Assembly (NCBI GenBank): GCA_021555075.1 | Contig: JAKGBX010000003.1 | Location: 1-64,000 of the forward strand | Direction: 5' to 3' | Source of the DNA: Rhodobacteraceae bacterium LMO-JJ12 | Lineage (GTDB): Bacteria > Pseudomonadota > Alphaproteobacteria > Rhodobacterales > Rhodobacteraceae | DNA: 64,000 nucleotides | Part shown: piece by piece, positions 35,932 through 52,309 of the stretch | Position numbering within the stretch: the first letter of the stretch is position 1 | Layout: each line of letters begins with the position of its first letter | Made by a program: the position numbers and the translations under genes | The notes under the pieces: model-generated | Database searches by the model: none | What the model was told of the DNA's origin: nothing | The model's input: the letters and a program-made list of their open reading frames with translations, nothing else

Positions 35932-38010
35932 TTATTGCGCTGCAATCAGCCCCATGCTCTCAAGTTTGAGAATGACTTGATGGGCGCAATTGTCGACATC
36001 CACATTCTCGGTTTCAACCCGCAGTTCCGGATTTTCGGGAACATCATAAGGGTCTGAAATCCCTGTGAATTCCTTGATCTTTCCTTCGCGGGCCAGCTTG
36101 TAAAGCCCCTTGCGGTCGCGCCGTTCGCATTCCTCGATCGTGGTCGCCACATGCACTTCGATAAAGGCTCCGAAGGCTTCGATATCCTCGCGCACCGCGC
36201 GCCGCGTGGTGGCATAGGGGGCAATCGGCGCACAGAGCGCAATGCCGCCATTCTTGGTGATCTCACTGGCGACATAACCGATGCGGCGAATGTTGAGATC
36301 GCGGTGCTCCTTGGAAAAGCCCAACTCCGAGCTGAGATTCTTACGCACGACATCGCCATCCAGAAGCGTCACCGGGCGCCCGCCCATCTCCATCAGCTTG
36401 ACCATCAACGCATTGGCAATGGTCGATTTTCCCGATCCCGAGAAGCCGGTGAAGAAAACGGTAAAGCCCTGCTGGCTGCGCGGCGGGCGTGTCTTGCGCA
36501 ATTCCTTGACCACTTCGGGAAACGAGAACCACTCCGGAATCTCCAACCCTTCCTGAAGGCGGCGACGCAACTCGGTGCCTGAAATGTTCAGGATTGTCAC
36601 CTTATCCTTGTCCACGATTTCATCGGCGGGCTCGTATTGCGCGCGCTCCTGCACATAGACCATATGTTTGAAATCGACCATCTCACAGCCGATTTCCGCT
36701 TGATGCTCGCGAAACAGATCCTGCGCGTCATAGGGACCGTAAAAATCCTCGCCCTTCGAGTTTTTGCCCGGCCCGGCATGGTCGCGCCCGACAATGAAAT
36801 GGGTGCAGCCATGGTTGGCGCGGATCAGCCCATGCCAAACGGCTTCGCGTGGACCAGCCATGCGCATCGCCAGGTTCAGCAGGCTCATCGAAGTGGTTGA
36901 GGATGGGTATTTGTCCAGCACCGCCTCGTAACAACGCACACGGGTGAAGTGATCGACATCACCCGGTTTGGTCATACCGACAACCGGATGGATCAGCAGG
37001 TTGGCCTGCGCCTCGCGCGCGGCGCGAAAGGTCAACTCCTGGTGCGCGCGGTGCAGCGGGTTGCGAGTTTGGAACGCCACCACCTTGCGCCAGCCCAGCT
37101 TGCGGAAATAGGCGCGCAATTCGTTCGGCGTGTCGCGCCGTCCGCGAAAATCGTAATGCACCGGCTGTTGAATGCCAACGACCGGCCCGCCCAGATATAC
37201 GTTGCCCGCCGTGTTATGCAGATAGTTCACCGCCGGATGCGCGCTGTCATCGGCGCCAAACACCTTTTCCGCCTCGCGTGCTTTATCCGGGGTCCAACGG
37301 TCGGTCAGGGTCATTGTGGCAAGGATCACACCTTCCTGATCGCGCAGCGCAATATCCTGTCCAACTTCGATTTTCTCAGCAAACTCTTCGTTCACATCCA
37401 GCGTGATGGGCATCGGCCAAAGACGGCCATCGGCCAGCCGCATGTTCTCGACCACACCATCATAGTCCTTTTCCGTCAGAAAGCCTTTGAGCGGATGGAA
37501 GCCACCATTCATCAGCAGTTCCAGATCGCAGATCTGGCGCGGCGTCAGATCCCAGGAGACGAGATCGGCCGCATCGCGCTTGAGCTTCTGGGCGCTTTCG
37601 GCGGAAACAAAGAGTTCCGGAATGGGAGCAAGTTGGTTTTGCATGATTTGGGTCCTGTGGTTGAAATTCGTCAAATTGCTGGTTGTGCCGGTCAGTTCGG
37701 CATGCAGTGCGTCGTATTCTGCCAGTTTCCTGGCAAGGAATTGGTCGGTCAGGCGGGTCTTTTCCGCCGCGCCCTTGACGGTCAGGGCATAGGCATATCG
37801 CTGGCGCTGATCCGGCCCCGATCGTTGGCTGGTCCTGACAAAACCAGCCTCGATCGCGGCGCGCAGTTGCGCGTTGAGCCGTCCCAGGCTGATGCCAAGC
37901 GCCGTGGCGGTCTGGCGCTGCGACGCGTCCGGCGCCAGATCAAGCTGGCGCAACAGGCGGAAGCGCAGGTCGTCTTCCAGCATCGGCGATTTTGGGTCGG
38001 TCGGGGTCAT
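35932..38010 (-). CDS. ATP sulfurylase-APS kinase with N-terminal winged-helix domain
   Basis: The open frame encodes 692 residues. Residues about 10-115 look like a MarR/EPS-associated winged-helix regulator (LRFRLLRQLDLAPDASQRQTA region, LGISLGRLNAQLRAAIEAGFV). From Met123 the protein is a bifunctional sulfate-activating enzyme: ATP sulfurylase with QTRNPLHRAHQ and VGRDHAGPG, then APS kinase with P-loop FTGFSGSGKST. It makes APS and PAPS from sulfate. An internal ATG at 37644, with AGGA 8 bases upstream, would give the usual 570-residue enzyme alone. So this is either a true fusion or a regulator and enzyme read in one frame with internal initiation. Confidence 0.88.
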   Translation of the reverse strand: MTPTDPKSPMLEDDLRFRLLRQLDLAPDASQRQTATALGISLGRLNAQLRAAIEAGFVRTSQRSGPDQRQRYAYALTVKGAAEKTRLTDQFLARKLAEYDALHAELTGTTSNLTNFNHRTQIMQNQLAPIPELFVSAESAQKLKRDAADLVSWDLTPRQICDLELLMNGGFHPLKGFLTEKDYDGVVENMRLADGRLWPMPITLDVNEEFAEKIEVGQDIALRDQEGVILATMTLTDRWTPDKAREAEKVFGADDSAHPAVNYLHNTAGNVYLGGPVVGIQQPVHYDFRGRRDTPNELRAYFRKLGWRKVVAFQTRNPLHRAHQELTFRAAREAQANLLIHPVVGMTKPGDVDHFTRVRCYEAVLDKYPSSTTSMSLLNLAMRMAGPREAVWHGLIRANHGCTHFIVGRDHAGPGKNSKGEDFYGPYDAQDLFREHQAEIGCEMVDFKHMVYVQERAQYEPADEIVDKDKVTILNISGTELRRRLQEGLEIPEWFSFPEVVKELRKTRPPRSQQGFTVFFTGFSGSGKSTIANALMVKLMEMGGRPVTLLDGDVVRKNLSSELGFSKEHRDLNIRRIGYVASEITKNGGIALCAPIAPYATTRRAVREDIEAFGAFIEVHVATTIEECERRDRKGLYKLAREGKIKEFTGISDPYDVPENPELRVETENVDVDNCAHQVILKLESMGLIAAQ

Positions 38011-39857: not shown

Positions 39858-39961
39858 GCCTGCCACCCCGGCGCGGCGTTTATCACTCTGATTGCATGCT
39901 CATTCTTTGCGCTTCATGGCGCTGCTTCATGCCGAATCCGACGTGGGCTTACTAAAACCTT

Positions 39962-39991
39962 TTGACACGACTCGCTTTCCCTCCATATCAT
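39962..39991 (+). promoter_or_regulatory. Sigma-70-type promoter of the Mo-hydroxylase/Hnr operon
   Basis: A perfect TTGACA (39962-39967) and TATCAT (39986-39991) are spaced by 18 bases. The predicted start near 39998 leaves a leader of about 37 bases before the TTG start of the first gene. A TTCGT/ACGAA inverted repeat (39991-40013) overlaps the predicted transcription start and could bind the cluster's MarR regulator. Confidence 0.6.
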
Positions 39992-40034
39992 TCGTGTACA
40001 AACAGTTAACGAACAGGTCCGCAGGGGGACGATA

Positions 40035-40862
40035 TTGAACTATCATGCGCCGGATAACCTGGACGAGGCACTCGAGATCATGGCCCTTGGCGGGGTGACT
40101 CCAGTGGCGGGTGGAACCGATTTCTATCCCGCGATGGGGTCGGGCGGGCCGCGTCAAAGCCTGCTTGATCTCACGCGAGTCAAATACCTGCGCGGCATCG
40201 TGCGCGATGGCGACCAATGGCGTATCGGTGCCGCAACCCGCTGGAGCGACATCCTGCAGGCCGACTTGCCAGCGGCTTTCGATGGGTTGAAAGCCGCCGC
40301 ACGCGAGGTCGGCAGCGTGCAGATCCAGAATGCCGGCACGGTGGCGGGCAACCTCTGCAATGCCTCCCCGGCGGCGGATGGCGTGCCGCCCCTGTTGGTG
40401 CTTGACGCCGAAGTCGAACTGGCATGCGCCGCCGGAACGCGCCGCATGCCACTCACCGATTTCCTCACGGGCGTGCGACAGACAGCACTTGCGCCGGACG
40501 AGCTGATGATCGGCCTTTATCTTCCCAATCCCCCCGAGGGCGCTTTGGGGCGGTTTTCCAAGCTCGGCAGCCGCCGGTATCTGGTGATTTCAATCGCTAT
40601 GACGGCTGCTCTGCTGCGTCTCGATTCCAAGGGCAGGTTTGATATAGCGCGCATCGCCGTGGGGGCTTGCTCGCCGGTGGCGCTTAGGCTTGCCGCTTTG
40701 GAGGCCGCACTTATCGGGCAAAAGCCCGGTGATGTTGACATAACCCAAGAGCATCTCGCGCCGCTTTCGCCGATCGACGATGTGCGCGGCACGGCGGGCT
40801 ACCGTCTTGAATCTGCACGCGAGATGTTGGCGCGACTGATCTGCGAGGGCTGGAATGGATAG
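40035..40862 (+). CDS. Mo-hydroxylase FAD-binding subunit (CoxM/XdhB-like)
   Basis: The 275-residue protein is the medium subunit of a xanthine-oxidase-family enzyme. FAD motifs are VAGGTDFYPAM near 33 and GTVAGNLCNASPAADGVPPLL near 98-118. It passes electrons from the Fe-S centres of the next gene product to an acceptor. The start is an unusual TTG after GCAGGGGGACGA; no better start lies in frame downstream because the conserved NYHAP start would be lost. It overlaps the next gene by 8 bases. Confidence 0.9.
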   Translation: MNYHAPDNLDEALEIMALGGVTPVAGGTDFYPAMGSGGPRQSLLDLTRVKYLRGIVRDGDQWRIGAATRWSDILQADLPAAFDGLKAAAREVGSVQIQNAGTVAGNLCNASPAADGVPPLLVLDAEVELACAAGTRRMPLTDFLTGVRQTALAPDELMIGLYLPNPPEGALGRFSKLGSRRYLVISIAMTAALLRLDSKGRFDIARIAVGACSPVALRLAALEAALIGQKPGDVDITQEHLAPLSPIDDVRGTAGYRLESAREMLARLICEGWNG

Positions 40863-43593
40863 CCGCGTGACACCTGAAACAACCTTCACCCTCAATGGTC
40901 ACCGCGTCAGCGTCGCGCCCCGCGTCGGCGAGCGTTTGTCGGAAAGCCTGCGCGAACGCCTCGGTGCGCGTGACGTGAAAATCGGCTGTAACGCGGGCGA
41001 TTGCGGCGCCTGCACCGTTCTGGTCGATGGCGCGCCGGTCTGTTCCTGCCTGATGCCCGCGCAACAGGCGGCAGGGAGCAAGGTTGAGACTCTGGCCGGG
41101 CTTTACGCCGACGAGCCACTGGCGCGCAGTCTTGCCGCAAGGTTCGAAGCGCGCGGCGCGGCGCAATGCGGCATCTGCACGCCGGGCATGATGGTCTCGG
41201 CTGTGGCGCTCTTGCGCACATCGCCCGCACCCGATGAAACCGCCGTCAAGGATGCGCTGGGCGGTGTGCTTTGTCGCTGCACCGGCTATGCCAAGATCAT
41301 CGACGCTGTGATGGATCGTGGGTTTGCCGCCGGGGCCGATGCCCAAGGCCACGCCGGAGCGGCGATTGCCAAGCTCGACAGCGGCCCGAAGGTGCGCGGC
41401 ACCGAACAGTTCGGCGATGATGTCGCCCCGCCTGATGCGCTGGTGATCAAGATCATCCGTAGCCCCCACGCCCACGCACGCTTTGCTTTCGGGGATCTCG
41501 ATGGTTTCGCCGCGCGGCCCGGCATCAAAGCGGTTCTGAGCGCAGACGACATTCCGGGAACCAACCTCTTCGGGGTGATCCCCGCCTTCATAGATCAGCC
41601 GGTTTTCGCCGTTGAAGAGACCCGCTTTCGTGGCGAGGCCGTGGCCGCCGTTGTGGGCGAGGCCGATGTGATGGCCCAATTTGATGCCGAAGATTTCCCG
41701 ATTGTCTGGACGCAATTGCCCGACACCCAAAGCGTCCCGGCGGCGATGGCAGAGGATGCGCCCCGCCTGCACGAAACCCGCGAAGGCAATGTGATGTGCG
41801 GCGGTTTTGTCGCTCATGGCGATGCCGAGTCTGCGCTGGCCCGCGCCGCCGTGCTGGCCGAGGGGCATTTCACCACCAGCTTTGTCGAGCACGCCTATAT
41901 CGAGCCCGAAGCCGGGTTCGCCCAAATCGTCAATGACCGCGTCGAAGTCCACGCCTGCACACAAGCGCCGGTGATGGATCTTGATACGCTCGAGATGGTG
42001 CTCGGCATGGACCGCTCCCGCATCCGCGTTGTGCCTACCGCAACGGGCGGCGGATTTGGCTCCAAGCTCGACGTTTCGGTTCAGCCCTATCTGGCACTTG
42101 CTGCGCTGAAAACCGGGCGGCCCGTGCGGCTGACGTATGAACGTCGTGAATCGATGCAATCGACCACCAAGCGCCACCCGGCAGAGATGAGCGTCAAGAT
42201 TGGCGCCGATGCGACGGGTCGCATCTGTGGCATGCGCTTTGATGGTCTCTTCAATACCGGTGCCTACGCCAGTTGGGGGCCGACAGTGGCCAATCGTGTG
42301 CCGGTGCATGCCTCGGGACCTTACGCCGTGGCCGATTACCGGGCCGAGGCAAAAGGCATTCACACCCATTGCCCGCCTTCCGGGGCGTTTCGCGGCTTTG
42401 GCGTGCCGCAGGCGGCGGTTGCGCAGGAAAGCCTTTATGATGCGCTGGCCGATCAACTGAACATCGACCGGCTCGAATTCCGCATCCTCAACGCGCTCGA
42501 AAACGGCACCCCGACCGTCTGTGGACAGGTGTTTGAGCAAGGCGTCGGCATCAAGGCCTGCCTTGAGGCACTACGCCCGGCTTGGCAGGCAGAGCGCGCC
42601 GAGGCGGCAAAGTTCAACGCTGATGGCGGCACCATTCGCCGCGGTGTCGGTCTGGCGGCGGGCTGGTACGGATGTGGCAACACGTCGCTGCCCAACCCCT
42701 CGACGATCAAGGCCGGGCTGCGCGCCGATGGGCAGATCGTGTTGCATCAGGGTGCGGCAGATATCGGGCAGGGCTCCAACACCGTAATCGCTCAGATTTT
42801 CGCCACCGCGCTGGGCGTGCCTGTGGGCGCGCTTGCGCTGATCGGCGGTGATACCGATGTGACACCCGACGCCGGCAAAACTTCGGCCTCGCGTCAGACC
42901 TTTGTTTCGGGCAACGCCGCGCGACTGACCGGCGAAGCTTTGCGCACCGAAATCCTGCAACGCGCTAATGCAGGCGAGGGGGCCGAGATCATACCCCGCG
43001 CAGGCGGGTTGACGGTGCGCGATGGCGGCCGAGTGCATGAAATCGACCTTTCCGCGCTGTCACCAGACGACGAAGGCTATGTGCTGCGCGCGCAGGAATC
43101 CTATGACCCCCCGACCAAACCGCTCGATGCCAATGGTCAGGGCATTCCATATGCCCAGTTCGGCTATGCCGCGCATCTTTGTGTTTTGGAGGTCGACACC
43201 GCGCTCGGCACTGTCAAACCGCTGAAATTCGTTGCGGCCCATGATCTGGGCAAGGCCATCAACCCGCTTCTGGTCGAGGGCCAGGTGGAAGGCGGTATCG
43301 CGCAGGGTCTCGGCATGGCCTTGATGGAGGAATACCTGCCCGGACGCACAGAGAACCTGCATGATTACCTGATCCCGACGGTGGGCGACATGCCCCCGGT
43401 CGAAACGCTGATTATCGAGGATCCCGACGCGCACGGACCTTATGGCGCCAAGGGATTGGGCGAACATGTCCTGATCCCGACCGCGCCCGCGATCCTGAAC
43501 GCAATCCGCGATGCGACCGGGGTGCAGGTCACGCGTCTGCCGGTGACGCCATCGCGGCTCCGTGCTGCCCTGAGGGAGATCACGGATGTCTGA
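40855..43593 (+). CDS. Mo-hydroxylase with fused 2Fe-2S and molybdopterin subunits
   Basis: The 912-residue protein joins a small two-cluster subunit to a large Mo subunit. Cluster ligands are Cys45, 50, 53, 65 and Cys105, 108, 140, 142. The large part starts near 165 and has ATGGGFGSKLD, CPPSGAFRGFG and a C-terminal KGLGE whose Glu fits the catalytic base. The enzyme should hydroxylate an aromatic N-heterocycle or similar substrate with water-derived oxygen. These subunits are usually separate. No XdhC-type maturation gene is in the window. The substrate is not known; nicotinate-like compounds are suggested by the next gene. Confidence 0.9.
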   Translation: MDSRVTPETTFTLNGHRVSVAPRVGERLSESLRERLGARDVKIGCNAGDCGACTVLVDGAPVCSCLMPAQQAAGSKVETLAGLYADEPLARSLAARFEARGAAQCGICTPGMMVSAVALLRTSPAPDETAVKDALGGVLCRCTGYAKIIDAVMDRGFAAGADAQGHAGAAIAKLDSGPKVRGTEQFGDDVAPPDALVIKIIRSPHAHARFAFGDLDGFAARPGIKAVLSADDIPGTNLFGVIPAFIDQPVFAVEETRFRGEAVAAVVGEADVMAQFDAEDFPIVWTQLPDTQSVPAAMAEDAPRLHETREGNVMCGGFVAHGDAESALARAAVLAEGHFTTSFVEHAYIEPEAGFAQIVNDRVEVHACTQAPVMDLDTLEMVLGMDRSRIRVVPTATGGGFGSKLDVSVQPYLALAALKTGRPVRLTYERRESMQSTTKRHPAEMSVKIGADATGRICGMRFDGLFNTGAYASWGPTVANRVPVHASGPYAVADYRAEAKGIHTHCPPSGAFRGFGVPQAAVAQESLYDALADQLNIDRLEFRILNALENGTPTVCGQVFEQGVGIKACLEALRPAWQAERAEAAKFNADGGTIRRGVGLAAGWYGCGNTSLPNPSTIKAGLRADGQIVLHQGAADIGQGSNTVIAQIFATALGVPVGALALIGGDTDVTPDAGKTSASRQTFVSGNAARLTGEALRTEILQRANAGEGAEIIPRAGGLTVRDGGRVHEIDLSALSPDDEGYVLRAQESYDPPTKPLDANGQGIPYAQFGYAAHLCVLEVDTALGTVKPLKFVAAHDLGKAINPLLVEGQVEGGIAQGLGMALMEEYLPGRTENLHDYLIPTVGDMPPVETLIIEDPDAHGPYGAKGLGEHVLIPTAPAILNAIRDATGVQVTRLPVTPSRLRAALREITDV

Positions 43594-43655
43594 GTCGAAT
43601 TCCGGCGCATGTTTCAAACCGATTTCGGCGACCGAAATCGGCAAGGGAGGCTTCC

Positions 43656-45140
43656 ATGACAAGTGAGAGAGCGAAAGTCGAAAAGATCCGCTGCGATGCC
43701 TGCCCGGTGATGTGTTTCATCGCCGAGGGTAAATCCGGCGCCTGCGACCGCTATGCCAATCACGCAGGCGAATTGGTGCGCCTTGATCCGCTGACCGTGA
43801 TCGAAATGACCTCCGAGAAGCTGGTGCCGTTTCTTCAGGGCGATGAGGCGGGCGATTGGGACGGCGATATCGTCAAGGGCCAGCGCCGCTTTGTCACCGC
43901 TGTCGGCGCGGGCACCACCTATCCCGATTACAAACCCGCCCCTTTCATCGTCTCTCAGGAGGTCGAAGGCGTCGATATGGTCACGGTCGTGACCGAAGGC
44001 ATCTTCTCTTATTGCGGCGCTAAGGTGAAAATCGACACCGACCGCCATCTCGGCGATGAACGCGACGTTGTGCGGGTAGATGGCGAACCCATCGGCCATG
44101 TGATGACCTCGGAATACGGCTCGAAAATGCTGTCGCTGGGCGGGGTCGAACACCTCACTGGCGGCTCCAAGAAAGAAGGCCGCGTGACCTGTGATGCATT
44201 GATGCAGCTGTGCAATCGGGAGCCCGTCACCATGGTGATCGGCGAAGAAGGCCACTCGATTGAAGTTGTTGTGCAAGCTGGCCAGCCACCCATCGTAAAC
44301 GGTGTGCCCGAAAAACTGATGCGCGTCGGCTGTGGCTCGGCCGCCATCGGGATGTTTGCCAAGCAATGGTGCGACATTGTCGACGAAGTCGTCGTCGTCG
44401 ATGACCACATCACCGGCGTGCTCAGCGAACATTCGGCGGGCCAGGTCCTCGGCGTGCCGCCCACCGGCATCAAGATCAAAGGCCGCCGTTCGACCCCCGG
44501 ACGCTATTTTCAGGTGGCCGAGCCGGGCCTTGGCTGGGGCGGCACCGATATCGAAGACCCGTTGACCATTCTGGGTGATTGGAAACCCAACGTGGCTTGG
44601 GAGGGGCTGCGCCTCTTCATGGTTTCCACAACGGGCGAACAATGGGCCTATTTCGAGCTTGACGCCGACCTTGTGCCACAGCCAAAATCTGCCCCCGAAG
44701 CCGTGCGCGCCAGCGCAGAACGCATTGCCGAGAACTGTGAACCCTCGATTTGTTCGGTGCTCTTCATGGGCGGTGCAGGCGGCAGCTTGCGTGCGGGTGT
44801 AACCGAAAACCCCGTGCGCCTTACCCGCTCTGTGCGCCAGGCCCTCACCCGGGTCAGCTGTGGCGGAGCCGAAGCCTACGTTTGGCCCGGCGGCGGCATC
44901 ACGGTGATGGCGGATGTTATGGAGATGCCCTCCAACGCTTTCGGTTATGTGCCCACACCCGCCATCGTCGCCCCGATCGAATTCACCATGCGGGTCAGCG
45001 ACTACGCGGCCCTGGGCGGTCACACCAAGGAAATCAGGGCCGTCGACACAGTGGTGAGCGACGCAACCCGCAAGGTTGGTCCAAGCGCAGCAGGCCATGA
45101 CCCCAACGCACGCGGCCATTACCGCTGGGAGGACAAATGA
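43656..45140 (+). CDS. 6-Hydroxynicotinate-reductase-like protein
   Basis: The 494-residue protein resembles proteins annotated as 6-hydroxynicotinate reductase (Hnr), which in Eubacterium barkeri reduces the ring of 6-hydroxynicotinate with ferredoxin. A cysteine set C13-x2-C16-x3-C20-x9-C30 near the N-terminus could bind an Fe-S cluster; more Cys occur at 120, 180, 186, 226 and 239. The name rests on memory of the family and has not been checked by alignment. Its place after a Mo-hydroxylase matches the order hydroxylate, then reduce. It overlaps the UPF0280 gene by 4 bases. Confidence 0.75.
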   Translation: MTSERAKVEKIRCDACPVMCFIAEGKSGACDRYANHAGELVRLDPLTVIEMTSEKLVPFLQGDEAGDWDGDIVKGQRRFVTAVGAGTTYPDYKPAPFIVSQEVEGVDMVTVVTEGIFSYCGAKVKIDTDRHLGDERDVVRVDGEPIGHVMTSEYGSKMLSLGGVEHLTGGSKKEGRVTCDALMQLCNREPVTMVIGEEGHSIEVVVQAGQPPIVNGVPEKLMRVGCGSAAIGMFAKQWCDIVDEVVVVDDHITGVLSEHSAGQVLGVPPTGIKIKGRRSTPGRYFQVAEPGLGWGGTDIEDPLTILGDWKPNVAWEGLRLFMVSTTGEQWAYFELDADLVPQPKSAPEAVRASAERIAENCEPSICSVLFMGGAGGSLRAGVTENPVRLTRSVRQALTRVSCGGAEAYVWPGGGITVMADVMEMPSNAFGYVPTPAIVAPIEFTMRVSDYAALGGHTKEIRAVDTVVSDATRKVGPSAAGHDPNARGHYRWEDK

Positions 45141-45982
45141 GCTTTTCCAGCGCGCGCCTCTCCGGTGATCGGCTGCATTTGCAGCATGGGCCGATTGATC
45201 TGGTAATCGGCGCAGACGGCGCGCGAGAGCGGGCTTTTGCGGCGGCTGAAGCCGCGTTTGATGGCCTGCTCGAAGCCCTGGTGGATGAACTGGACGTGTT
45301 GCGCCAGCCATTGAGCGCCGACAGCGCACCCCATGGCCCCGTGGCAAGACGCATGACGCAGGCGGTGGCGCGCCATCGCGGTTTTGTTACGCCAATGGCG
45401 TCTGTTGCGGGCGCCGTGGCCGACCATATGCTGGCGGCGATGGTCGCGGCGGGCGGCTTGCGGCGCGCCTATGTGAACAATGGCGGAGATATTGCGCTGT
45501 ATCTGGCCGCTAACGAGAGGTTTCGCCTCGCCATGGCCGGGCTCGATGGTGCCGGGCTTGGCGCGATCGAGATTACCCCGAACCAAGGCATTGCAGGGAT
45601 CGCCACCAGCGGGCAGGGCGGGCGCAGCCTGTCTTTCGGCATCGCCGAAAGCGTGACGGTTTTGGCATGCGACGCCGCCGCCGCAGATGTAGCGGCAACG
45701 CTGATTGCCAATGCGGTCGATCTGCCCGATCACGGCGCGATTTCACGCGCGCCAGCCACCGAGCTTCGCCCCGACAGCGATCTCGGCGAACGTTTGGTGG
45801 TCGCTCATGTCGGGCCACTAAGCGATAATGATGTTGACCAAGCCCTGATGCGCGGGGCCAAGGCAGCCAATACCATGCGACAAGCCGGTTTGATCCATGC
45901 TGCGGCGCTGTTCCTGCGTGGGCAGAACCGGGTTGTAGGGCCAATCGGACGAGTAGAACTAAAGGAAACAGAATATGCCTGA
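45137..45982 (+). CDS. UPF0280 family protein (ApbE-like)
   Basis: The 281-residue protein belongs to UPF0280, which shares its fold with ApbE FMN transferases. A conserved core is TPMASVAGAVADHML near 85-99 and AYVNNGGDIALYL near 111-123, equivalent to the ApbE VNxGGDI stretch. In this setting it might flavinylate or otherwise mature the Hnr-like protein, or act as an enzyme of the pathway. It overlaps both neighbours (4 and 8 bases), so it is surely cotranscribed. Confidence 0.82.
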   Translation: MSFSSARLSGDRLHLQHGPIDLVIGADGARERAFAAAEAAFDGLLEALVDELDVLRQPLSADSAPHGPVARRMTQAVARHRGFVTPMASVAGAVADHMLAAMVAAGGLRRAYVNNGGDIALYLAANERFRLAMAGLDGAGLGAIEITPNQGIAGIATSGQGGRSLSFGIAESVTVLACDAAAADVAATLIANAVDLPDHGAISRAPATELRPDSDLGERLVVAHVGPLSDNDVDQALMRGAKAANTMRQAGLIHAAALFLRGQNRVVGPIGRVELKETEYA

Positions 45983-46562
45983 ACTCAAATTGAGAAAAAC
46001 CATCGAGAGTCTTGAAGAGATTTGGCACGAGGGCGGTGAGCCGGTGAAAACCCCTTACCGCCGGGCCTGGGCCATGGCGGTGATTGCCAACCCCTTTGCC
46101 GGAAAATATGCGCCCGATATTCAGCCCTTCATGGAAGAGTTGAAACCTTTGGGCCTCCAACTGGCCACCCGGCTGATCGAATTGATGGGCGGGGCCGAGA
46201 AGGTCGAAGGTTATGGCAAAGGCGCAATCGTCGGCAGCGCAGGCGAGGTTGAACATGGCGCGCTCTGGCATGCGCCGGGCGGCTATGCGATGCGCGAATT
46301 GTTGGGAGAAGAGCGTTCCAAAGCCATCGTGCCTTCGACCAAGAAGGTTGGCGGCGTTGGCGCGCGTCTCGATGTGCCCGTGACCCATATCACCGCCTCT
46401 TATGTGCGCTCGCACTTTGATTCTATCGAAGTGGGCTGCAACGACGCACCGCGCGCCGATGAAATGGCACTGGTGCTGGTGATGACCAATGGCGCGCGGG
46501 TTCATAACCGCGCTGGTGGTCTGGAAGCGGGTGCGATCAAGGGAGAGGATGGGTTGAAATGA
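45975..46562 (+). CDS. DUF1185 (amino acid synthesis family) protein, copy 1
   Basis: The 195-residue protein belongs to PF06684/DUF1185. Conserved parts are VIANPFAGKYAPDI near 36-49, GYGKGAIVG, EVEHGALWHAPGG, IVPSTKK, GARLDVPVTH, YVRSHFDSIEV and NDAPRADEMALVLVM. No signal peptide or membrane segment. The family name reflects a chorismate-mutase-like fold and not a proven role. It is the first of two tandem paralogues. Confidence 0.85.
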   Translation: MPELKLRKTIESLEEIWHEGGEPVKTPYRRAWAMAVIANPFAGKYAPDIQPFMEELKPLGLQLATRLIELMGGAEKVEGYGKGAIVGSAGEVEHGALWHAPGGYAMRELLGEERSKAIVPSTKKVGGVGARLDVPVTHITASYVRSHFDSIEVGCNDAPRADEMALVLVMTNGARVHNRAGGLEAGAIKGEDGLK

Positions 46563-47143
46563 AGGCGAAGATCAGAAAAATCGTCGTAACGGTAGAAGAA
46601 ACACTGCGCGAAATGGGCCGCGAGATCACACCGCCCACGCGCAAGGCCGTGGCCGTTGCCGTGATTGAAAACCCCTTCGCCGGACGTTACGAAGAAGACC
46701 TCAGCAACCTGATGGAAATCGGTGCCGAACTTGGCGGTATCTTAGGTGAACGCTGCGTTCAGGCACTTGGCATCACGCCCGAAGAAGCCGAATCCTACGG
46801 CAAATCCGCCATGGTTGGCGAAAATGGCGAACTTGAACATGCCGCCGCAATCCTGCACCCCAAGTTGGGTGCACCGCTCAGGAAGGCCGTCGAGAAGGGC
46901 GCCGCGCTGGTTCCGTCCTCCAAAAAAATGGGCAGCCCCGGCCAGGTGCTTGATGTGCCTCTGGGGCACAAGGATGCGGCCTATGTGCGCAGCCATTTTG
47001 ACGGAATCGAAGTGACCATAAACGACGCACCGCGCGCTAACGAAATCATGGTGGCTGTTGCTGTCACTGATAGCGGGCGTCCTTTGCCGCGTGTCGGCGG
47101 ACTCGAAGCAAAAGATGCGGAGGGTAAAGACGGGTTGCGCTGA
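46559..47143 (+). CDS. DUF1185 (amino acid synthesis family) protein, copy 2
   Basis: The 194-residue protein is a paralogue of the preceding one and keeps every block: VIENPFAGRYEEDL, SYGKSAMVG, ELEHAAAILHPKLG, LVPSSKK, GQVLDVPLGH, YVRSHFDGIEV and NDAPRANEIMVAVAV. The two are diverged but alignable across their whole length, so they may form a hetero-oligomer. ATGA overlap with copy 1. A TTTTGGCC/GGCCAAAA hairpin (47154-47175) follows. Confidence 0.85.
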   Translation: MKAKIRKIVVTVEETLREMGREITPPTRKAVAVAVIENPFAGRYEEDLSNLMEIGAELGGILGERCVQALGITPEEAESYGKSAMVGENGELEHAAAILHPKLGAPLRKAVEKGAALVPSSKKMGSPGQVLDVPLGHKDAAYVRSHFDGIEVTINDAPRANEIMVAVAVTDSGRPLPRVGGLEAKDAEGKDGLR

Positions 47144-47153
47144 GGCGCAATCC

Positions 47154-47175
47154 TTTTGGCCTAACACGGCCAAAA
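47154..47175 (+). terminator. Hairpin between DUF1185 and the receptor gene
   Basis: A perfect 8-bp stem (47154-47161 with 47168-47175, loop TAACAC) lies in the 109-base gap before the substrate-binding protein gene. It has no T-run and may mark an mRNA processing point or a weak terminator. Confidence 0.45.
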
Positions 47176-47252
47176 CACAATAATGGGCTGGTAAGAGCCT
47201 GAAAAACATTAAAACAATGAAACCAACCAACATGACCACAGGGAGACGTGAC

Positions 47253-48467
47253 ATGAAACTAACCAAACGCAAACTATTGGGCGCATTGGCCGCCCTGCCG
47301 ATGCTGGGTCTTATGCCCGGCGCAGCCATGGCACAGGACACGATCATCATCGGTGAGATCAATTCCTATACCCGCATGGCCGCCTTTACCGAGCCTTACA
47401 AGAAGGGCTGGGAACTCGCGGTCGAAGAGATCAACGCCGCAGGTGGCGTCAACGGCAAGATGCTCGAAGTGATCAGCCGCGACGACACCGGCGATCCCGC
47501 CACCGCGATCCGCATCGCGGAAGAATTGGTTTCCAAAGACGGCGCGGTGATGCTGTTTGGCACGTTCCTTTCCAACATTGGCCTCGCTGTCGCGGATTTT
47601 GCCAAACAGAAAGAAGTGCTGTTCCTCGCTTCCGAACCGCTGACCGATGCGCTCGTCTGGTCCAAAGGCAACAAATATACTTACCGTCTGCGCCCATCAA
47701 CACACATGCAGGCGGCAATGCTGGCTGAACAGGCGGCCAAGCTGAACAAGAAGAAATGGGCCACCATCGCGCCAAACTATGCCTATGGAACGGATGCGGT
47801 AAAGGCCTTCAAAACCGAACTGACCAAGCTGCAACCGGATGTGGAATGGGTGGCCGAACAATGGCCGCCAGTGTTCAAGATCGACGCCGGTTCAACCGTG
47901 CGCGCGCTGGAACAGGCCAAGCCCGACGCGATCTACAACGTGACCTTCGGCGGTGATCTGTCGAAATTCGTGCGCGAAGGCAGCTTGCGCTTCCTCTTTG
48001 AAGACCGCACCGTCGTATCGCTTCTCACGGGCGAGCCGGAATATCTCGACCCGCTCGGCGAAGAAACCCCCGAGGGTTGGATCGTCACCGGCTATCCGGC
48101 GGCCCAGATCGACACCCCGGAGCACAAAGCCTTCCTGACCGCCTATGAAGCGCGCTGGGGCGAAGTGCCGAAAACCGGCTCGATCGTTGGTTATAACTCG
48201 GTGCTGGCAATCAAGGCGGCGCTGGAAAAAGCCGGATCGACCGAAACAGAAGCCCTGCGCGAAGCGATGGAAGGGCTCGAAGTGCCAAGCTCGCCCACCG
48301 GTCCGTTCATGTTCCGCGCGGCGGATCATCAATCAACCATGGGTGCCTATGTCGGTCTCACCGCCAAGAAAGACGGCATGGGTGTGATGACCGATTGGTC
48401 CTACGCTGATGGCGCGGCCTATCTTCCCAGCGAAGAAGAAGCGGCCAAAATGCGTCCGGCGGAATAA
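47253..48467 (+). CDS. ABC transporter substrate-binding protein (LivK-like)
   Basis: The 404-residue protein has a signal peptide (1-27, ending AAMA before QDTIIIGE) and a type-I periplasmic binding fold with GWELAVEEINAAGGVNGKMLEVI, DDTGDPATAIRIAEELVSKD and APNYAYGTDAVKAFK. It would capture the substrate of the catabolic cluster; the branched-chain family also binds aromatic acids and amides. The ATG at 47253 is chosen for the signal peptide and the CAGGGAGA site. Confidence 0.92.
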   Translation: MKLTKRKLLGALAALPMLGLMPGAAMAQDTIIIGEINSYTRMAAFTEPYKKGWELAVEEINAAGGVNGKMLEVISRDDTGDPATAIRIAEELVSKDGAVMLFGTFLSNIGLAVADFAKQKEVLFLASEPLTDALVWSKGNKYTYRLRPSTHMQAAMLAEQAAKLNKKKWATIAPNYAYGTDAVKAFKTELTKLQPDVEWVAEQWPPVFKIDAGSTVRALEQAKPDAIYNVTFGGDLSKFVREGSLRFLFEDRTVVSLLTGEPEYLDPLGEETPEGWIVTGYPAAQIDTPEHKAFLTAYEARWGEVPKTGSIVGYNSVLAIKAALEKAGSTETEALREAMEGLEVPSSPTGPFMFRAADHQSTMGAYVGLTAKKDGMGVMTDWSYADGAAYLPSEEEAAKMRPAE

Positions 48468-48481
48468 TCTTCAAACACCAT

Positions 48482-48507
48482 ACCGGGGCGGTGCAGACTG
48501 CCCCGGT
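48482..48507 (+). terminator. Attenuator-like hairpin after the receptor gene
   Basis: ACCGGGGC (48482-48489) and GCCCCGGT (48500-48507) form a perfect 8-bp stem followed by TATTCG. It lies 14 bases after the receptor gene and could raise receptor over permease levels, as at aapJ. Confidence 0.55.
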
Positions 48508-48563
48508 TATTCGTATTCGTAAAAAAATCGCGACCTAACGCGAAATGAACAGGGACGGGCGAA

Positions 48564-50423
48564 ATGGGTTTTTATTTTGCACAATTGCTGACGGGGCTGG
48601 CGAATGCGTCGTCGCTCTTTCTGATTGCCTGCGGGCTGTCGATTATTTTTGGCGTCACGCGGATCGTCAATTTCGCCCATGGCTCGTTCTACATGGTCGG
48701 GGCCTATCTGGCCTATACGCTGGTCACCACGCTTGATGGCGGCGTCTTCGGTTTCTGGTTTGCGGTGCTGGCGGCGGCGGTAATCGTGGGGGTGGTCGGG
48801 CTGATCATCGAAATGACCATCCTGCGACGGATTTATCATGCGCCGGAACTGTTCCAACTGGTCGCCACCTTCGGCGTGGTGCTGATCTTTCAGGATGCAA
48901 CGCTGGCGATCTGGGGAGCGGAAGACCTGCTTGGTCCGCGCGCTCCCGGGCTTGATCGGGCGGTGCGCATAATAGGCGAGCCGATCCCGGAATATGATCT
49001 GGCACTGATTTTCATCGGTCCGCTGGTACTGGGCGCGATCTGGCTGTTGTTCCATCGCACGCGCTGGGGGATTTTGGTGCGCGCCGCGACACAAGACCGC
49101 GACATGGTTGACGCACTCGGCGTCAATCAGGCGTGGCTGTTCTCGGGTGTCTTCATGCTGGGGGCCGCGCTTGCAGGTCTCGGCGGTGCGCTGCAAATCC
49201 CGCGCGAAGCGGCAAACCTGCACATGGACCTGTCGGTCATTGGCGAAGCTTTTGTGGTCGTGGTGATCGGCGGTATGGGGTCGGTCTCGGGCGCGTTTGT
49301 CGCCGCCATCCTGATTTCGGTGCTCAACGCCTTTGCCATTCTTGTCTTTCCGCAGATTTCGATCGTTCTGCCTTTCATCGTCATGGCCGTGGTGCTGATC
49401 CTGCGCCCGCATGGCCTGTTTGGCAAACCGGGCAGCGAACATGGTTCACCCGTCGACCCGGAAGCGCCCCTGCGCCTTCTGTCGCCCCGCGCCGCGATGG
49501 TGCTGATGGCGTTGATCTTCACACTGGCGCTCAGCCCGGCGGTGCTCAGCGACTTTTCCACGATCCTGCTGGTTGATGTCATGGTGGCGACGCTTTTTGC
49601 GGTGTCGCTGCACTTCATGATGGGGCTGGGCGGGATGGTGTCCTTTGGTCACGCAGCCTATTTCGGTGTTGGCGCCTATGGCACGGCAATGGCGGTGAAA
49701 TTCTTCGGCCTTTCGATGCTGCCCGCAATGCTGCTGGGGCCGCTGGCCGCCGCACTTGCGGCGCTGTTCTTTGGCTGGTTCTGCGTGCGGCTTTCCGGCG
49801 TATATCTCGCCATGCTAACGCTTGCGGCGGCACAGATTCTTTGGGGGGTCACCTTCCAGTGGCAGGAATTCACCGGCGGCGATGATGGCATCCTCGGTGT
49901 CTGGCCGGCAGCATGGGCCAATTCGGATCAGGTATTCTTCTATATTGCCTTCGTGCTTTGTATCGGCGGCATCCTGTTCTTGCGCCGGGTCGCCCATTCG
50001 CCCTTCGGCTATGGCCTGCGCGGTATCCGCGACAGCGATATTCGCGCCGAGGCGATCGGCATGGATGTAAAGCTGCATCAATGGATGGGGTTTGCGCTTG
50101 CCGGTGCGGTGGCCGGTATTGCGGGCAGTGTCTTTGCCTTTTCCAAGGGATCTGTTTTCCCCGATGCACTTGGGATCGGGCAATCGGTAGATGGGCTGAT
50201 CATGGTGCTTCTGGGCGGTATTCACGCGCTGGCCGGACCGATTTTTGGCGCGGTTGCCTTTGTGATGATCGAAGATTGGGTGAGCCGACTAGACTACTGG
50301 CGCTTCATTTTCGGTGCGATCATTCTCGTTGTGGTGTTGATTGCGCCTGATGGTATCGCAGGTGGGGTGGATCGGTTGTTGCGCGTTCTAAGGCTTCGAC
50401 GGGATGAGGAGGGCGTGGCATGA
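48564..50423 (+). CDS. Fused LivH-LivM branched-chain-type permease
   Basis: The 619-residue membrane protein joins both permeases of a HAAT importer. The LivH half (1 to about 290) has [28 protein letters not shown] and [16 protein letters not shown]; the LivM half (about 310-619) has [36 protein letters not shown] and [15 protein letters not shown]. These are usually two genes. It overlaps the livG-like gene by 4 bases. Confidence 0.93.
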
Positions 50424-51193
50424 ATGTTCTGGAAGTGCGCGGTCTGTCCAAGAGTTTTGGCGGCCTTGTAGCGGTCTCGGATGTGTCCTTCGACCTGGGG
50501 AAGGGCGAGTTTCTGGCGCTGATCGGTCCCAACGGGGCGGGCAAGACCACCTGTTTCAACATGCTTAACGGTTATCTCAAGCCGGATCGCGGGTCGGTGA
50601 AGCTGGAGGGGGCGGAACTGACTGGCAAGCGGCCGCGCAAGATCTGGCGTATGGGGGTGGGGCGGACGTTTCAAATCACCCGCACGTTTCTGTCGATGAC
50701 GGTGCGCGAGAATGTGCAGATGGCGCTTCTGTCGCATCACCGGCGGATGTTCGATCTGCTCAGCCGCGCGACAAAGGCCTATGTCGACGAGGCCGATGCA
50801 CTGCTGGACTTGGTGTCAATGAGGGCGCAGGGCGGGCGGGCGTGTTCCGAACTGGCGTATGGTGACCTCAAGCGGCTGGAATTGGCGATTGCCCTTGCGC
50901 ATGACCCGGCGCTTTTGCTGATGGATGAACCGACGGCGGGCATGGCGCCTTCCGAGCGGATTGCGCTGATGGAGTTGACCGCGGGGATTGTGGCAGAGCG
51001 CGGCGTCAGCGTGCTGTTTACCGAGCATGACATGGATGTGGTTTTTGCCCATGCGCATCGTATCCTGGTGCTGAACCGCGGCATGTTGATCGCCGAAGGC
51101 ACCGGGCCTGAAATTCGCGAAAATGCGATGGTGCAGGAGGTCTACCTCGGCGGTGGGACGCTGTTTGAAAAGGCGGAGGGTGCAGATGCTTGA
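50420..51193 (+). CDS. ABC transporter ATP-binding protein (LivG-like)
   Basis: The 257-residue ATPase has Walker [10 protein letters not shown] near 35-43, the extended Q-loop region with [12 protein letters not shown] typical of LivG, signature [13 protein letters not shown] and Walker [16 protein letters not shown]. It pairs with the next gene product to drive the fused permease. It overlaps that gene by 8 bases. Confidence 0.93.
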
Positions 51194-51887
51194 GGTAAAA
51201 GACCTGACGGCGCGATACGGGCGGGCGCAGATCCTGAACGGAATGAGCCTTGATCTGGCCGGGCAGGAAGTTGTGGCGCTTCTGGGCCGCAATGGCGCGG
51301 GCAAGACAACGACGATGAAATGCATCATGGGGCTGGTCGTCACCAAGGCGGGCACGATCCGTTATGACGGGCAATCGCTGATGAAGCTGCCGCCGCATAT
51401 GATCTGCCGCGCTGGTATCGGCTATGTCCCCGAGGAGCGGCGGATTTTCCCCGACCTGACGGTTGAGGAAAACCTCGAAGTTGGTCGCCGCCCGCCGCGC
51501 GAAGGTGCGCCGGAATGGACGATCGAGCATCTCTATGAGCTGTTTCCCAATCTGGCCGAGCGGCGCAGCAACCTCGGCAAACAGATGTCGGGCGGCGAAC
51601 AGCAAATGCTGAGCATTGCGCGCACGCTGATGGGAAATCCGAAGGCGGTGCTGCTTGACGAGCCTTCCGAGGGCATCGCGCCGGTGATCGTGGAACAAAT
51701 GGCGCGGGTAATTGGCGAGTTGAAAAGCGAAGGCCTGTCGGTACTGCTGAGCGAACAGAACCTGCATTTTGCGCGAGCCGTTTCTGACCGTGCGATCATC
51801 ATCGAGAAGGGTTCGCTGCGCTTTGAAGGAAGCTTTGCCGAGCTTGATGCCAAGCCCGAAATCAGCCAGCAATACCTCGCGGTCTGA
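51186..51887 (+). CDS. ABC transporter ATP-binding protein (LivF-like)
   Basis: The 233-residue ATPase has Walker A GRNGAGKTT near 34-42, the LivF-type GIGYVPEERRIFPDLTVEENL, signature MSGGEQQML and Walker B AVLLDEPSEGIAP. The start ATG at 51186 lies inside the end of the livG-like gene; a longer in-frame reading is not needed. Confidence 0.93.
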   Translation: MLEVKDLTARYGRAQILNGMSLDLAGQEVVALLGRNGAGKTTTMKCIMGLVVTKAGTIRYDGQSLMKLPPHMICRAGIGYVPEERRIFPDLTVEENLEVGRRPPREGAPEWTIEHLYELFPNLAERRSNLGKQMSGGEQQMLSIARTLMGNPKAVLLDEPSEGIAPVIVEQMARVIGELKSEGLSVLLSEQNLHFARAVSDRAIIIEKGSLRFEGSFAELDAKPEISQQYLAV

Positions 51888-51889
51888 GG

Positions 51890-52309
51890 ATGGCTGACGC
51901 GCGCTATATCCTTGATGAGCAAGTCGGATATCTGCTCCGGCTGGCCTATCAACGTCATGCGGCGATCTTTCAGGCCCACACGCTCGAAGGGCTGACGGCG
52001 CAGCAATTCGCGGCGCTGGTGCGGATCGGCGAGGAAGGAGAGGTCTCGCAGAACCGGTTGGGGCGGTTGGCGGCGATGGATGTCGCCACGATCAAGGGCG
52101 TGGCCGACCGGCTCAGACTGAAGGGCCTGACATGCGTCGCACCCGATCCCGACGACAAGCGCCGTATGCTGATCACGCTGTCACAAGAAGGCCGCGCGTT
52201 GCTCAAGCGGATGTGTGACGTGGGCTTTGAGATCAGCAACGAGACATTGGCTCCGCTGACAAAAGCCGAACGCATCACTTTCATGGAGCTTCTCAAGAAG
52301 CTGACGTGA
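51890..52309 (+). CDS. MarR-family transcriptional regulator
   Basis: The 139-residue protein has the MarR winged helix: FAALVRIGEEGEVSQNRLGRLAAMDVATIKGVADRLRLKGL (about 43-83), then the wing DPDDKRRMLITLSQEG. It begins 2 bases after the livF-like gene, so it is the last gene of the catabolic operon and probably its local, ligand-sensing regulator. A candidate operator is at 39991-40013. Confidence 0.9.
   Translation: MADARYILDEQVGYLLRLAYQRHAAIFQAHTLEGLTAQQFAALVRIGEEGEVSQNRLGRLAAMDVATIKGVADRLRLKGLTCVAPDPDDKRRMLITLSQEGRALLKRMCDVGFEISNETLAPLTKAERITFMELLKKLT

Follow-up and report, generated by a model that had tools for sequence, protein, structure and literature searches.

The window analysed here is a stretch of 64,000 nucleotides from Rhodobacteraceae bacterium LMO-JJ12 (contig JAKGBX010000003.1). 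Between positions 40035 and 52309 it carries an operon of eleven genes which, judged from sequence, probably serves the uptake and degradation of nicotinate by the reductive route, through 6-hydroxynicotinate and 1,4,5,6-tetrahydro-6-oxonicotinate (THON). We give a probability of about 0.82 to this reading, by which the operon is the roseobacter form of a cluster published for Azorhizobium, Bradyrhizobium, Rhodopseudomonas and SG-6C (PMC3511419). One new finding is that Hnr, a homologue of 6-hydroxynicotinate reductase, and the UPF0280 protein are confined to the same 45 genomes over two draws of 190 and 299 genomes, weak fragments aside.

If the operon degrades nicotinate, how would it do so? 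The ATP-binding cassette (ABC) system would import nicotinate, the molybdenum (Mo) enzyme would convert it to 6-hydroxynicotinate, and Hnr would reduce this to THON. An enamidase from another contig would hydrolyse and deaminate THON to 2-formylglutarate, the enamidase product given in PMC9304392, and carbon would leave by decarboxylation to glutarate and on to glutaryl-coenzyme A (CoA), as in Azorhizobium. UPF0280 would mature Hnr, most likely by attaching or inserting flavin; the two DUF1185 proteins may come next after ring opening and deaminate, tautomerise or decarboxylate the aminomethylene or formyl diacid; and MarR would control the operon.

SG-6C grows on nicotinate and on 6-hydroxynicotinate (PMC3511419). 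The cluster described in that paper follows the same reductive THON route, and the gene set of the window fits its description, differing in that the enamidase is unlinked and the permease is a fused LivHM. The available text leaves the unknown proteins of that cluster unnamed.

Conservation of the gene order

A protein scan with Hnr identified 71 named loci in Rhodobacterales, Granulosicoccus, SAR116 and other groups. Two of these (L089 and L090) are the ends of one contig and probably hold one gene, so that at most 70 are independent. Immediately before Hnr stands the Mo gene, in 68 of the 69 named loci that could be assessed and in 23 of 26 loci of the class draw (190 genomes). Immediately after Hnr comes UPF0280, in 63 of 68 named loci and in all 24 of the class draw; the exceptions are L107, where the fetched stretch begins at DUF1185, past the expected place, and L110, L111, L113 and L120, loci of Granulosicoccus type in which UPF0280 and DUF1185 both stand at the operon end opposite Hnr. 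MarR homologues recur beside the cluster in relatives, and several different importers occur. Because the gene order recurs across loci, chance grouping is excluded. The original prediction had proposed a search for the same gene set in other alphaproteobacterial genomes, and there the order is found again; its view that Mo hydroxylase, Hnr-like reductase, importer and MarR belong to a single catabolic unit is supported, the unit being of the type that reduces the nicotinate ring.

The hydroxylase and the reductase

What substrate does the Mo hydroxylase accept? All the domains of the xanthine-dehydrogenase family are present, for Mo, two [2Fe-2S] clusters and flavin adenine dinucleotide (FAD). 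For the C-terminal part of the Mo subunit (entry 3, table 1) the best match in the PDB is 3HRD_B, the M subunit (NdhM) of Eubacterium barkeri nicotinate dehydrogenase, at 204.9 bits against 150.6 for the next. Tyr605 aligns with Tyr13 of NdhM, a residue modelled as the binder of the ring nitrogen of nicotinate (PMC5746545). The surrounding motif, [WF]YG[CI]GNT, recurs in 83 of the 85 related proteins compared, among them 9 of 9 from the HyuA-type loci described below. The subunit thus appears to be of the nicotinate-dehydrogenase type.

The window Hnr is 57–78% identical to 24 relatives. Nine of its cysteines could hold Fe-S clusters and are kept in 90% or more of 78 sequences (C13, C16, C20, C30, C120, C179, C186, C226 and C361); the barkeri Hnr is reported to contain covalently bound flavin as well as Fe-S clusters. 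Of the 25 plasmid orthologues listed (26 records matched), which are 63.6–79.1% identical, 16 are annotated 6-hydroxynicotinate reductase, and in Sulfitobacter sp. S190 the genes next to Hnr carry the annotations UPF0280 family and ‘amino acid synthesis family’. The Hnr of SG-6C is 42% identical to that of E. barkeri (PMC3511419). A Pfam search gave no match for the window Hnr; among 25 members of the family, GCV_T_C was matched in 16, at best with 3.9e-4. In the class draw 28 of 190 genomes carry Hnr; the other 27 sequences are 60–71% identical to that of the window, and a limit of E ≤ 0.001 brings in no tier of remoter matches.

Taken as a whole, the window genome resembles E. barkeri in its nicotinate dehydrogenase and enamidase homologues and, going by orthologue annotations and the identity of the SG-6C protein, probably in Hnr. 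It differs in that the Mo subunit is unsplit and fused to the FeS domain, and in that the later steps probably lead to glutarate, as a CoA-transferase homologue suggests.

UPF0280 accompanies Hnr

What role might be played by UPF0280? In the class draw the UPF0280 genomes are the Hnr genomes, 28 of 190, with one additional match of 55 residues in G121 (1.9e-5). In the phylum draw (299 genomes) UPF0280 is above cut-off in the same 21 genomes as Hnr, with an additional weak match in G464. Four genomes are common to both draws, and the union of Hnr genomes is 45; relatedness inflates any p-value here, and none is claimed.

The predicted model of UPF0280 (mean predicted local distance difference test score, pLDDT, 93.2) is closest to DVU1097 (Z 19.6). 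It aligns with the ApbE/Ftp flavin transferases at Z 13.8–15.9 (202–214 residues, root-mean-square deviation 3.2–3.8), the next fold listed being at 7.5. D184 and T188 are invariant (24/24), with a spacing that we take to match that of the ApbE metal ligands. Pfam ApbE matches 14 of 24 family members at E ≤ 10, at best with 2.5e-4. The shared genomes, the ApbE flavin-transferase fold and the covalent flavin reported for barkeri Hnr together suggest that UPF0280 is probably a maturation factor of Hnr rather than an enzyme of the pathway, most likely one that attaches or inserts flavin.

The COG2122/UPF0280 proteins of Desulfovibrio and the methanogens (DVU1097, structure 2O34; MA1715) share family and fold with that of the window, and NF003322 also matches Methanocaldococcus jannaschii and Methanosarcina acetivorans, below cut-off. 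Those proteins work with DUF39 and NIL/ferredoxin in homocysteine synthesis, for which COG2122 is required and a persulfide role has been proposed (PMC5764234), whereas the family members found here always accompany Hnr. In the one literature library searched, no published link was found between UPF0280 and Hnr or between HyuAB and THON.

Two possible ways to open the ring

If Hnr forms THON, which enzyme opens it? The original prediction remarked that no enamidase was present, and this holds for the 12-kb cluster. It does not hold for the genome, which encodes an enamidase on another contig (G000:C2:676062-677243) that is 67% identical to an Hnr-linked enamidase and has E. barkeri enamidase as its best PDB match (2VUN, 1.2e-105). 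Since this enamidase exists, the argument that its lack implied another substrate or other later steps fails. E. barkeri enamidase is likewise the best PDB match of the Hnr-linked representative that was tested (5.3e-113). Among the stretches fetched, an enamidase-like amidohydrolase (at least 50% identity) is present for 42 of the 71 named loci, 38 of which carry both DUF1185 paralogues too, and for 7 of the 27 loci of the class draw. In the window genome the region L132:10951-17247, near the enamidase, encodes a DctP-type binding protein accompanied by TRAP-like permease frames, as well as a SLAC1-family transporter and a glutathione S-transferase; this might be another route of uptake.

In four Ruegeria loci a CoA-transferase adjoins the enamidase on the same strand. 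The one tested has succinate-glutarate CoA-transferase as its best NCBIfam model (536.9 bits, the cut-off being 750), and an unlinked homologue of 65% identity is encoded in the window genome, which fits the Azorhizobium glutarate route named in PMC3511419. The late barkeri enzymes (hydroxymethylglutarate dehydrogenase, methyleneglutarate mutase and lyase) are absent from the eleven cluster genes, the rest of the genome not having been searched for them.

Other Hnr genomes carry HyuA in place of enamidase. Among the 28 of the class draw, 10 have an enamidase of at least 67% identity and the other 18, counting G079 as the source of the HyuA query, have HyuA of at least 59%; no genome reaches both levels. 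In the enamidase-type genomes HyuA attains 46% identity at best, and one HyuA genome, G104, has a remote enamidase (41%). The 17 further Hnr genomes of the phylum draw include 9 with enamidase (at least 62%) and 10 with HyuA (at least 59%), none with neither; G299 and G367 carry both (enamidase 62–63%). Over both draws, 45 of 45 Hnr genomes have at least one of the two enzymes and 43 just one, by identity limits that were read off the data, that for enamidase being looser in the second draw, and by a comparison made with HyuA only. In Hnr-free class genomes enamidase is found in G082 (76%) and, remotely, in G060 (40%), and HyuA in G114 (64%), G127 (67%, partial) and G011 (57%, just under the limit). 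The window genome has no such HyuA at E ≤ 1e-150.

On a tree of Hnr (27 of the 28 class-draw rows; G028, with its Hnr match in two adjacent pieces, was left out) the enamidase/HyuA label changes five times, at least three of these changes being forced by well-supported branches. Shuffled labels change 8.2 times on average, so that the labels are more clustered than by chance. The nearest NCBIfam models for the representative HyuA and HyuB are the caprolactamase subunits, CapA and CapB (498.6 and 348.8 bits, below the curated cut-offs of 1000 each). Because THON is a lactam, an ATP-dependent lactamase in place of enamidase is plausible, and the alternation in sequence makes it likely that HyuA stands in for enamidase at ring opening.

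The DUF1185 paralogues

Both DUF1185 proteins score far above the PF06684 cut-off (229.3 and 250.8 against 27 bits). Of 66 loci, 2, 14 and 50 have none, one and at least two copies, respectively. The conserved positions (Gly-Glu-x-Glu-His, His, Asp-Ala-Pro and Arg) suggest an enzyme. Paralogue 2, which also matches BB2672 (3BYQ, 2.5e-32), is the close homologue of SPO0826 (2QTP), which likewise adjoins ABC genes of branched-chain amino acid type. From fold and such neighbours the authors of those structures inferred amino-acid metabolism; the context in the window indicates catabolism of an N-heterocycle instead.

A tree of 44 rows, drawn from the fetched loci and thus from a subset of the genome-wide DUF1185 matches, puts paralogue 1 in a clade to which enamidase-type and HyuA-type loci contribute eight rows each. 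Paralogue 2 forms a group of loose resolution, the trigonelline-like sequences stand in a clade of their own, and there are further groups. A tie of paralogue 2 to enamidase, seen in all ten enamidase-type class genomes and in the Hnr-free G082, was reduced to a tendency, as the paralogue also occurs in HyuA-type Neorhizobium (66%), L114 and L056.

Where else is DUF1185 found? In three loci of Hnr-free genomes (L134, L143 and L144), and in L147, a second DUF1185 of the Hnr genome G105, it lies beside an alpha/beta hydrolase and a varying set of flavin reductase, luciferase-type monooxygenase and aldehyde dehydrogenase; L137, L139 and L148 have single members of that set (ten of the neighbour proteins were checked against Pfam, the others judged by eye). 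From their resemblance to the tgn genes, we take these loci to be trigonelline-like. The trigonelline route of Acinetobacter baylyi attacks the ring oxidatively, not reductively, and yields a C4, not a C5, diacid; it presumably passes through 2-formylsuccinate. TgnF of that route is described as a homologue of HcdD, itself a BCM-like member of the former DUF1185 family, and as a stimulator of succinate-semialdehyde oxidation; the authors of that description saw no stimulation by HcdD (PMC7913881). Since DUF1185 occurs in trigonelline-like operons too, since TgnF is related to it, and since both pathways meet an alpha-formyl diacid, DUF1185 may act just after ring opening. By this analogy its reaction could be a deamination, tautomerisation or decarboxylation, an assignment that we hold tentatively, at somewhat less than even odds. 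One further locus, L138 (G060:C7, about 9.7–11.5 kb), in a genome with no Hnr match, has a remote enamidase homologue (38–40%) right after a divergent DUF1185.

Operon layout and neighbouring genes

The genes of the operon are listed in table 1. As originally predicted from open reading frames, they are eleven, codirectional and mostly overlapping: the open reading frame list and the Pfam and NCBIfam searches place all on the plus strand, with six of ten junctions overlapping and gaps of 62, 106, 96 and 2 bp at the remaining four. The start predicted for the cluster, 39962, was about 70 bp too early. TTG 40035 is the earliest possible start in the frame of the FAD subunit (ATG, GTG and TTG allowed), and the family matches begin at residue 23–29 when this frame is read from 39966; as the first possible start and the onset of the matches coincide, we place the first gene there.

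Table 1. The eleven genes of the operon and the repeat that precedes them, in window positions.
Entry	Feature	Position	Strand	Evidence
1	Imperfect inverted repeat	39960..40002	.	11-nt arms, 21 nt apart, 82% complementary; before first gene
2	FAD subunit, nicotinate-dehydrogenase-type Mo hydroxylase	40035..40862	+	PF00941 6.3e-39, PF03450 1.7e-12; TTG start
3	Fused [2Fe-2S]/molybdopterin subunit, 912 residues	40855..43593	+	Fer2, Fer2_2, Ald_Xan_dh_C, MoCoBD_1, MoCoBD_2
4	Hnr, 6-hydroxynicotinate reductase homologue, 494 residues	43656..45140	+	N-terminal CxxCxxxC...C motif, nine conserved Cys
5	UPF0280 (COG2122) protein, predicted ApbE/Ftp flavin-transferase fold	45137..45982	+	NF003322 344.6 bits, cut-off 290
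6	DUF1185 / AA_synth paralogue 1	45975..46562	+	PF06684 2.8e-68
7	DUF1185 / AA_synth paralogue 2, close homologue of solved SPO0826	46559..47143	+	PF06684 6.8e-75; 2QTP E = 2.1e-106
8	ABC substrate-binding protein, LivK type	47250..48467	+	PF13458 2.8e-67
9	Fused LivH-LivM permease, 619 residues	48564..50423	+	Two BPD_transp_2 stretches; UrtB-like then UrtC-like half, below cut-offs
10	ABC ATPase, LivG type	50420..51193	+	PF00005 1.4e-29; LivG model best, below cut-off
11	ABC ATPase, LivF/UrtE type	51183..51887	+	TIGR03410 4.9e-72, below cut-off
12	MarR regulator, presumed local	51890..52309	+	PF01047 2.9e-7

The inverted repeat (entry 1, table 1) is a possible regulator site. Upstream of the operon lie a minus-strand pyridine-nucleotide-disulfide oxidoreductase (thioredoxin-reductase-like) and an AsnC-type regulator, and downstream an alpha/beta hydrolase on the minus strand. 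Further off, at 35932-38010 on the minus strand, a single open frame encodes two parts, at the N-terminus an EPS-associated MarR-like regulator (TIGR04176, 92.2 bits against a cut-off of 88) and after it a bifunctional sulfate adenylyltransferase/adenylylsulfate (APS) kinase (NF004040, 1038.7 bits); this is either a genuine fusion or two genes sharing one frame.

In the relatives two more genes are seen near the cluster. A Rieske oxygenase (at least 60% identity) occurs in 16 of 71 named loci (L070:15384-16451; also L077, L082, L086-L090 and others), possibly as an N-demethylase channelling trigonelline into the nicotinate route; a ferredoxin reductase also occurs in 16 of 71. In Granulosicoccaceae a ferredoxin-reductase-like gene of the same family lies just upstream of the Mo hydroxylase (L105:795-1625, L121:3382-4212) and might give electrons to, or take them from, Hnr or a Rieske partner.

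Discussion

Several observations weigh against the reading of the operon as a reductive nicotinate pathway with an Hnr matured by UPF0280. Over its whole length the Mo subunit has aldehyde oxidoreductases of the same fused FeS-Mo layout as its top PDB matches (376.5 bits), the chains of the split barkeri enzyme scoring separately (268.2, 204.7 and 110.9 bits). The identity of Hnr is reached indirectly, through orthologue annotations and the 42% that the SG-6C protein shares with E. barkeri Hnr. Its predicted model is weak (pLDDT 66.9), and no usable relative was found in the PDB: the best phmmer hit has E 0.12, a profile search gave nothing, and Foldseek with this weak model gave nothing at E ≤ 0.001. 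This absence of a fold match is no proof of a new fold. The unlinked enamidase is tied to the operon by analogy. Two Hnr genomes, G066 and G184, gave no DUF1185 match, so that some genomes do without DUF1185, which speaks against its being essential. UPF0280 scores below the Pfam ApbE cut-off (12.1 against 25.6 bits), the ApbE acceptor motif, which we take to be D..[ST][GS]A[ST], occurs in none of 78 Hnr sequences, and the ApbE homology of COG2122 seems not to extend to the flavin-binding region (PMC5764234).

Might the pathway nevertheless be a different one? In the original prediction, UPF0280 and the two DUF1185 proteins were to supply the missing steps, replacing enamidase and the later barkeri enzymes. 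The 12-kb cluster does lack an enamidase, and the roles of both protein types are unassigned. As a replacement for enamidase both were rejected, the same genome having an unlinked enamidase; the DUF1185 paralogues stand beside a linked enamidase in most loci that have one, and UPF0280 accompanies Hnr in HyuA genomes too. We consider the replacement very improbable. The proposal falls for UPF0280, which tracks Hnr and has a flavin-transferase fold, and gains some support for DUF1185, from the trigonelline-like operons, as a step after ring opening. It is also improbable, if less so, that the same Mo-Hnr core serves another pyridine carboxylate or betaine, such as trigonelline after demethylation, homarine or picolinate. 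The Rieske oxygenase and ferredoxin reductase of some loci would fit an upstream N-demethylation, importers vary, and a homarine pathway of environmental bacteria was published in 2026, to go by its citation. Against this, the eleven cluster genes include no Rieske oxygenase, trigonelline would enter as nicotinate anyway, and the enamidase, the nicotinate-type Tyr and the growth of SG-6C all indicate nicotinate.

UPF0280 might, instead of being a flavin transferase, catalyse a step of the pathway or act in sulfur transfer through a persulfide, a serious contender that we nonetheless favour less: the homocysteine work and the missing acceptor motif speak for it, while the clear ApbE/Ftp fold, far above the next, and the invariant D184 and T188 speak for a flavin transferase. 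As to HyuA, the genomes that carry it might degrade another lactam, so that the alternation would reflect two substrates and not one swapped step. HyuA does occur in three Hnr-free genomes, two Hnr genomes have both enzymes, and the number of DUF1185 copies differs between the types; on the other hand, the Tyr motif of the Mo subunit is kept in all nine HyuA-type proteins examined and the label switches repeatedly on the Hnr tree, albeit with more clustering than in shuffled labels. We regard two substrates as unlikely, and the exchange of one ring-opening step as the better account.

Taken jointly, these roles would make UPF0280/COG2122 an ApbE-fold cofactor transferase dedicated in each lineage to a single unusual Fe-S enzyme, to which it adds flavin at a non-canonical residue; this partner would be Hnr here and the DUF39/NIL-ferredoxin system in sulfate reducers and methanogens. 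DUF1185/TgnF would act generally on the unstable diacids, aminomethylene or formyl, that the opening of a pyridine ring leaves. Enamidase and the caprolactamase-like HyuAB would be interchangeable openers of THON. That all three hold together is speculative, and rather doubtful as a whole.

The operon itself is an ordinary member of a described pathway. It is of interest for the roles of UPF0280 and DUF1185, which can now be tested, and for the alternation of enamidase and HyuA. COG2122 is needed for homocysteine synthesis in Desulfovibrio and has, in the account of PMC5764234, no agreed function; its one-to-one link with Hnr offers an aerobic, genetically accessible system in which to study it. 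For DUF1185, annotated ‘amino acid synthesis’, the contexts seen here suggest the catabolism of pyridine rings instead, and the alternation of enamidase with HyuA predicts a second, ATP-dependent opening of THON.

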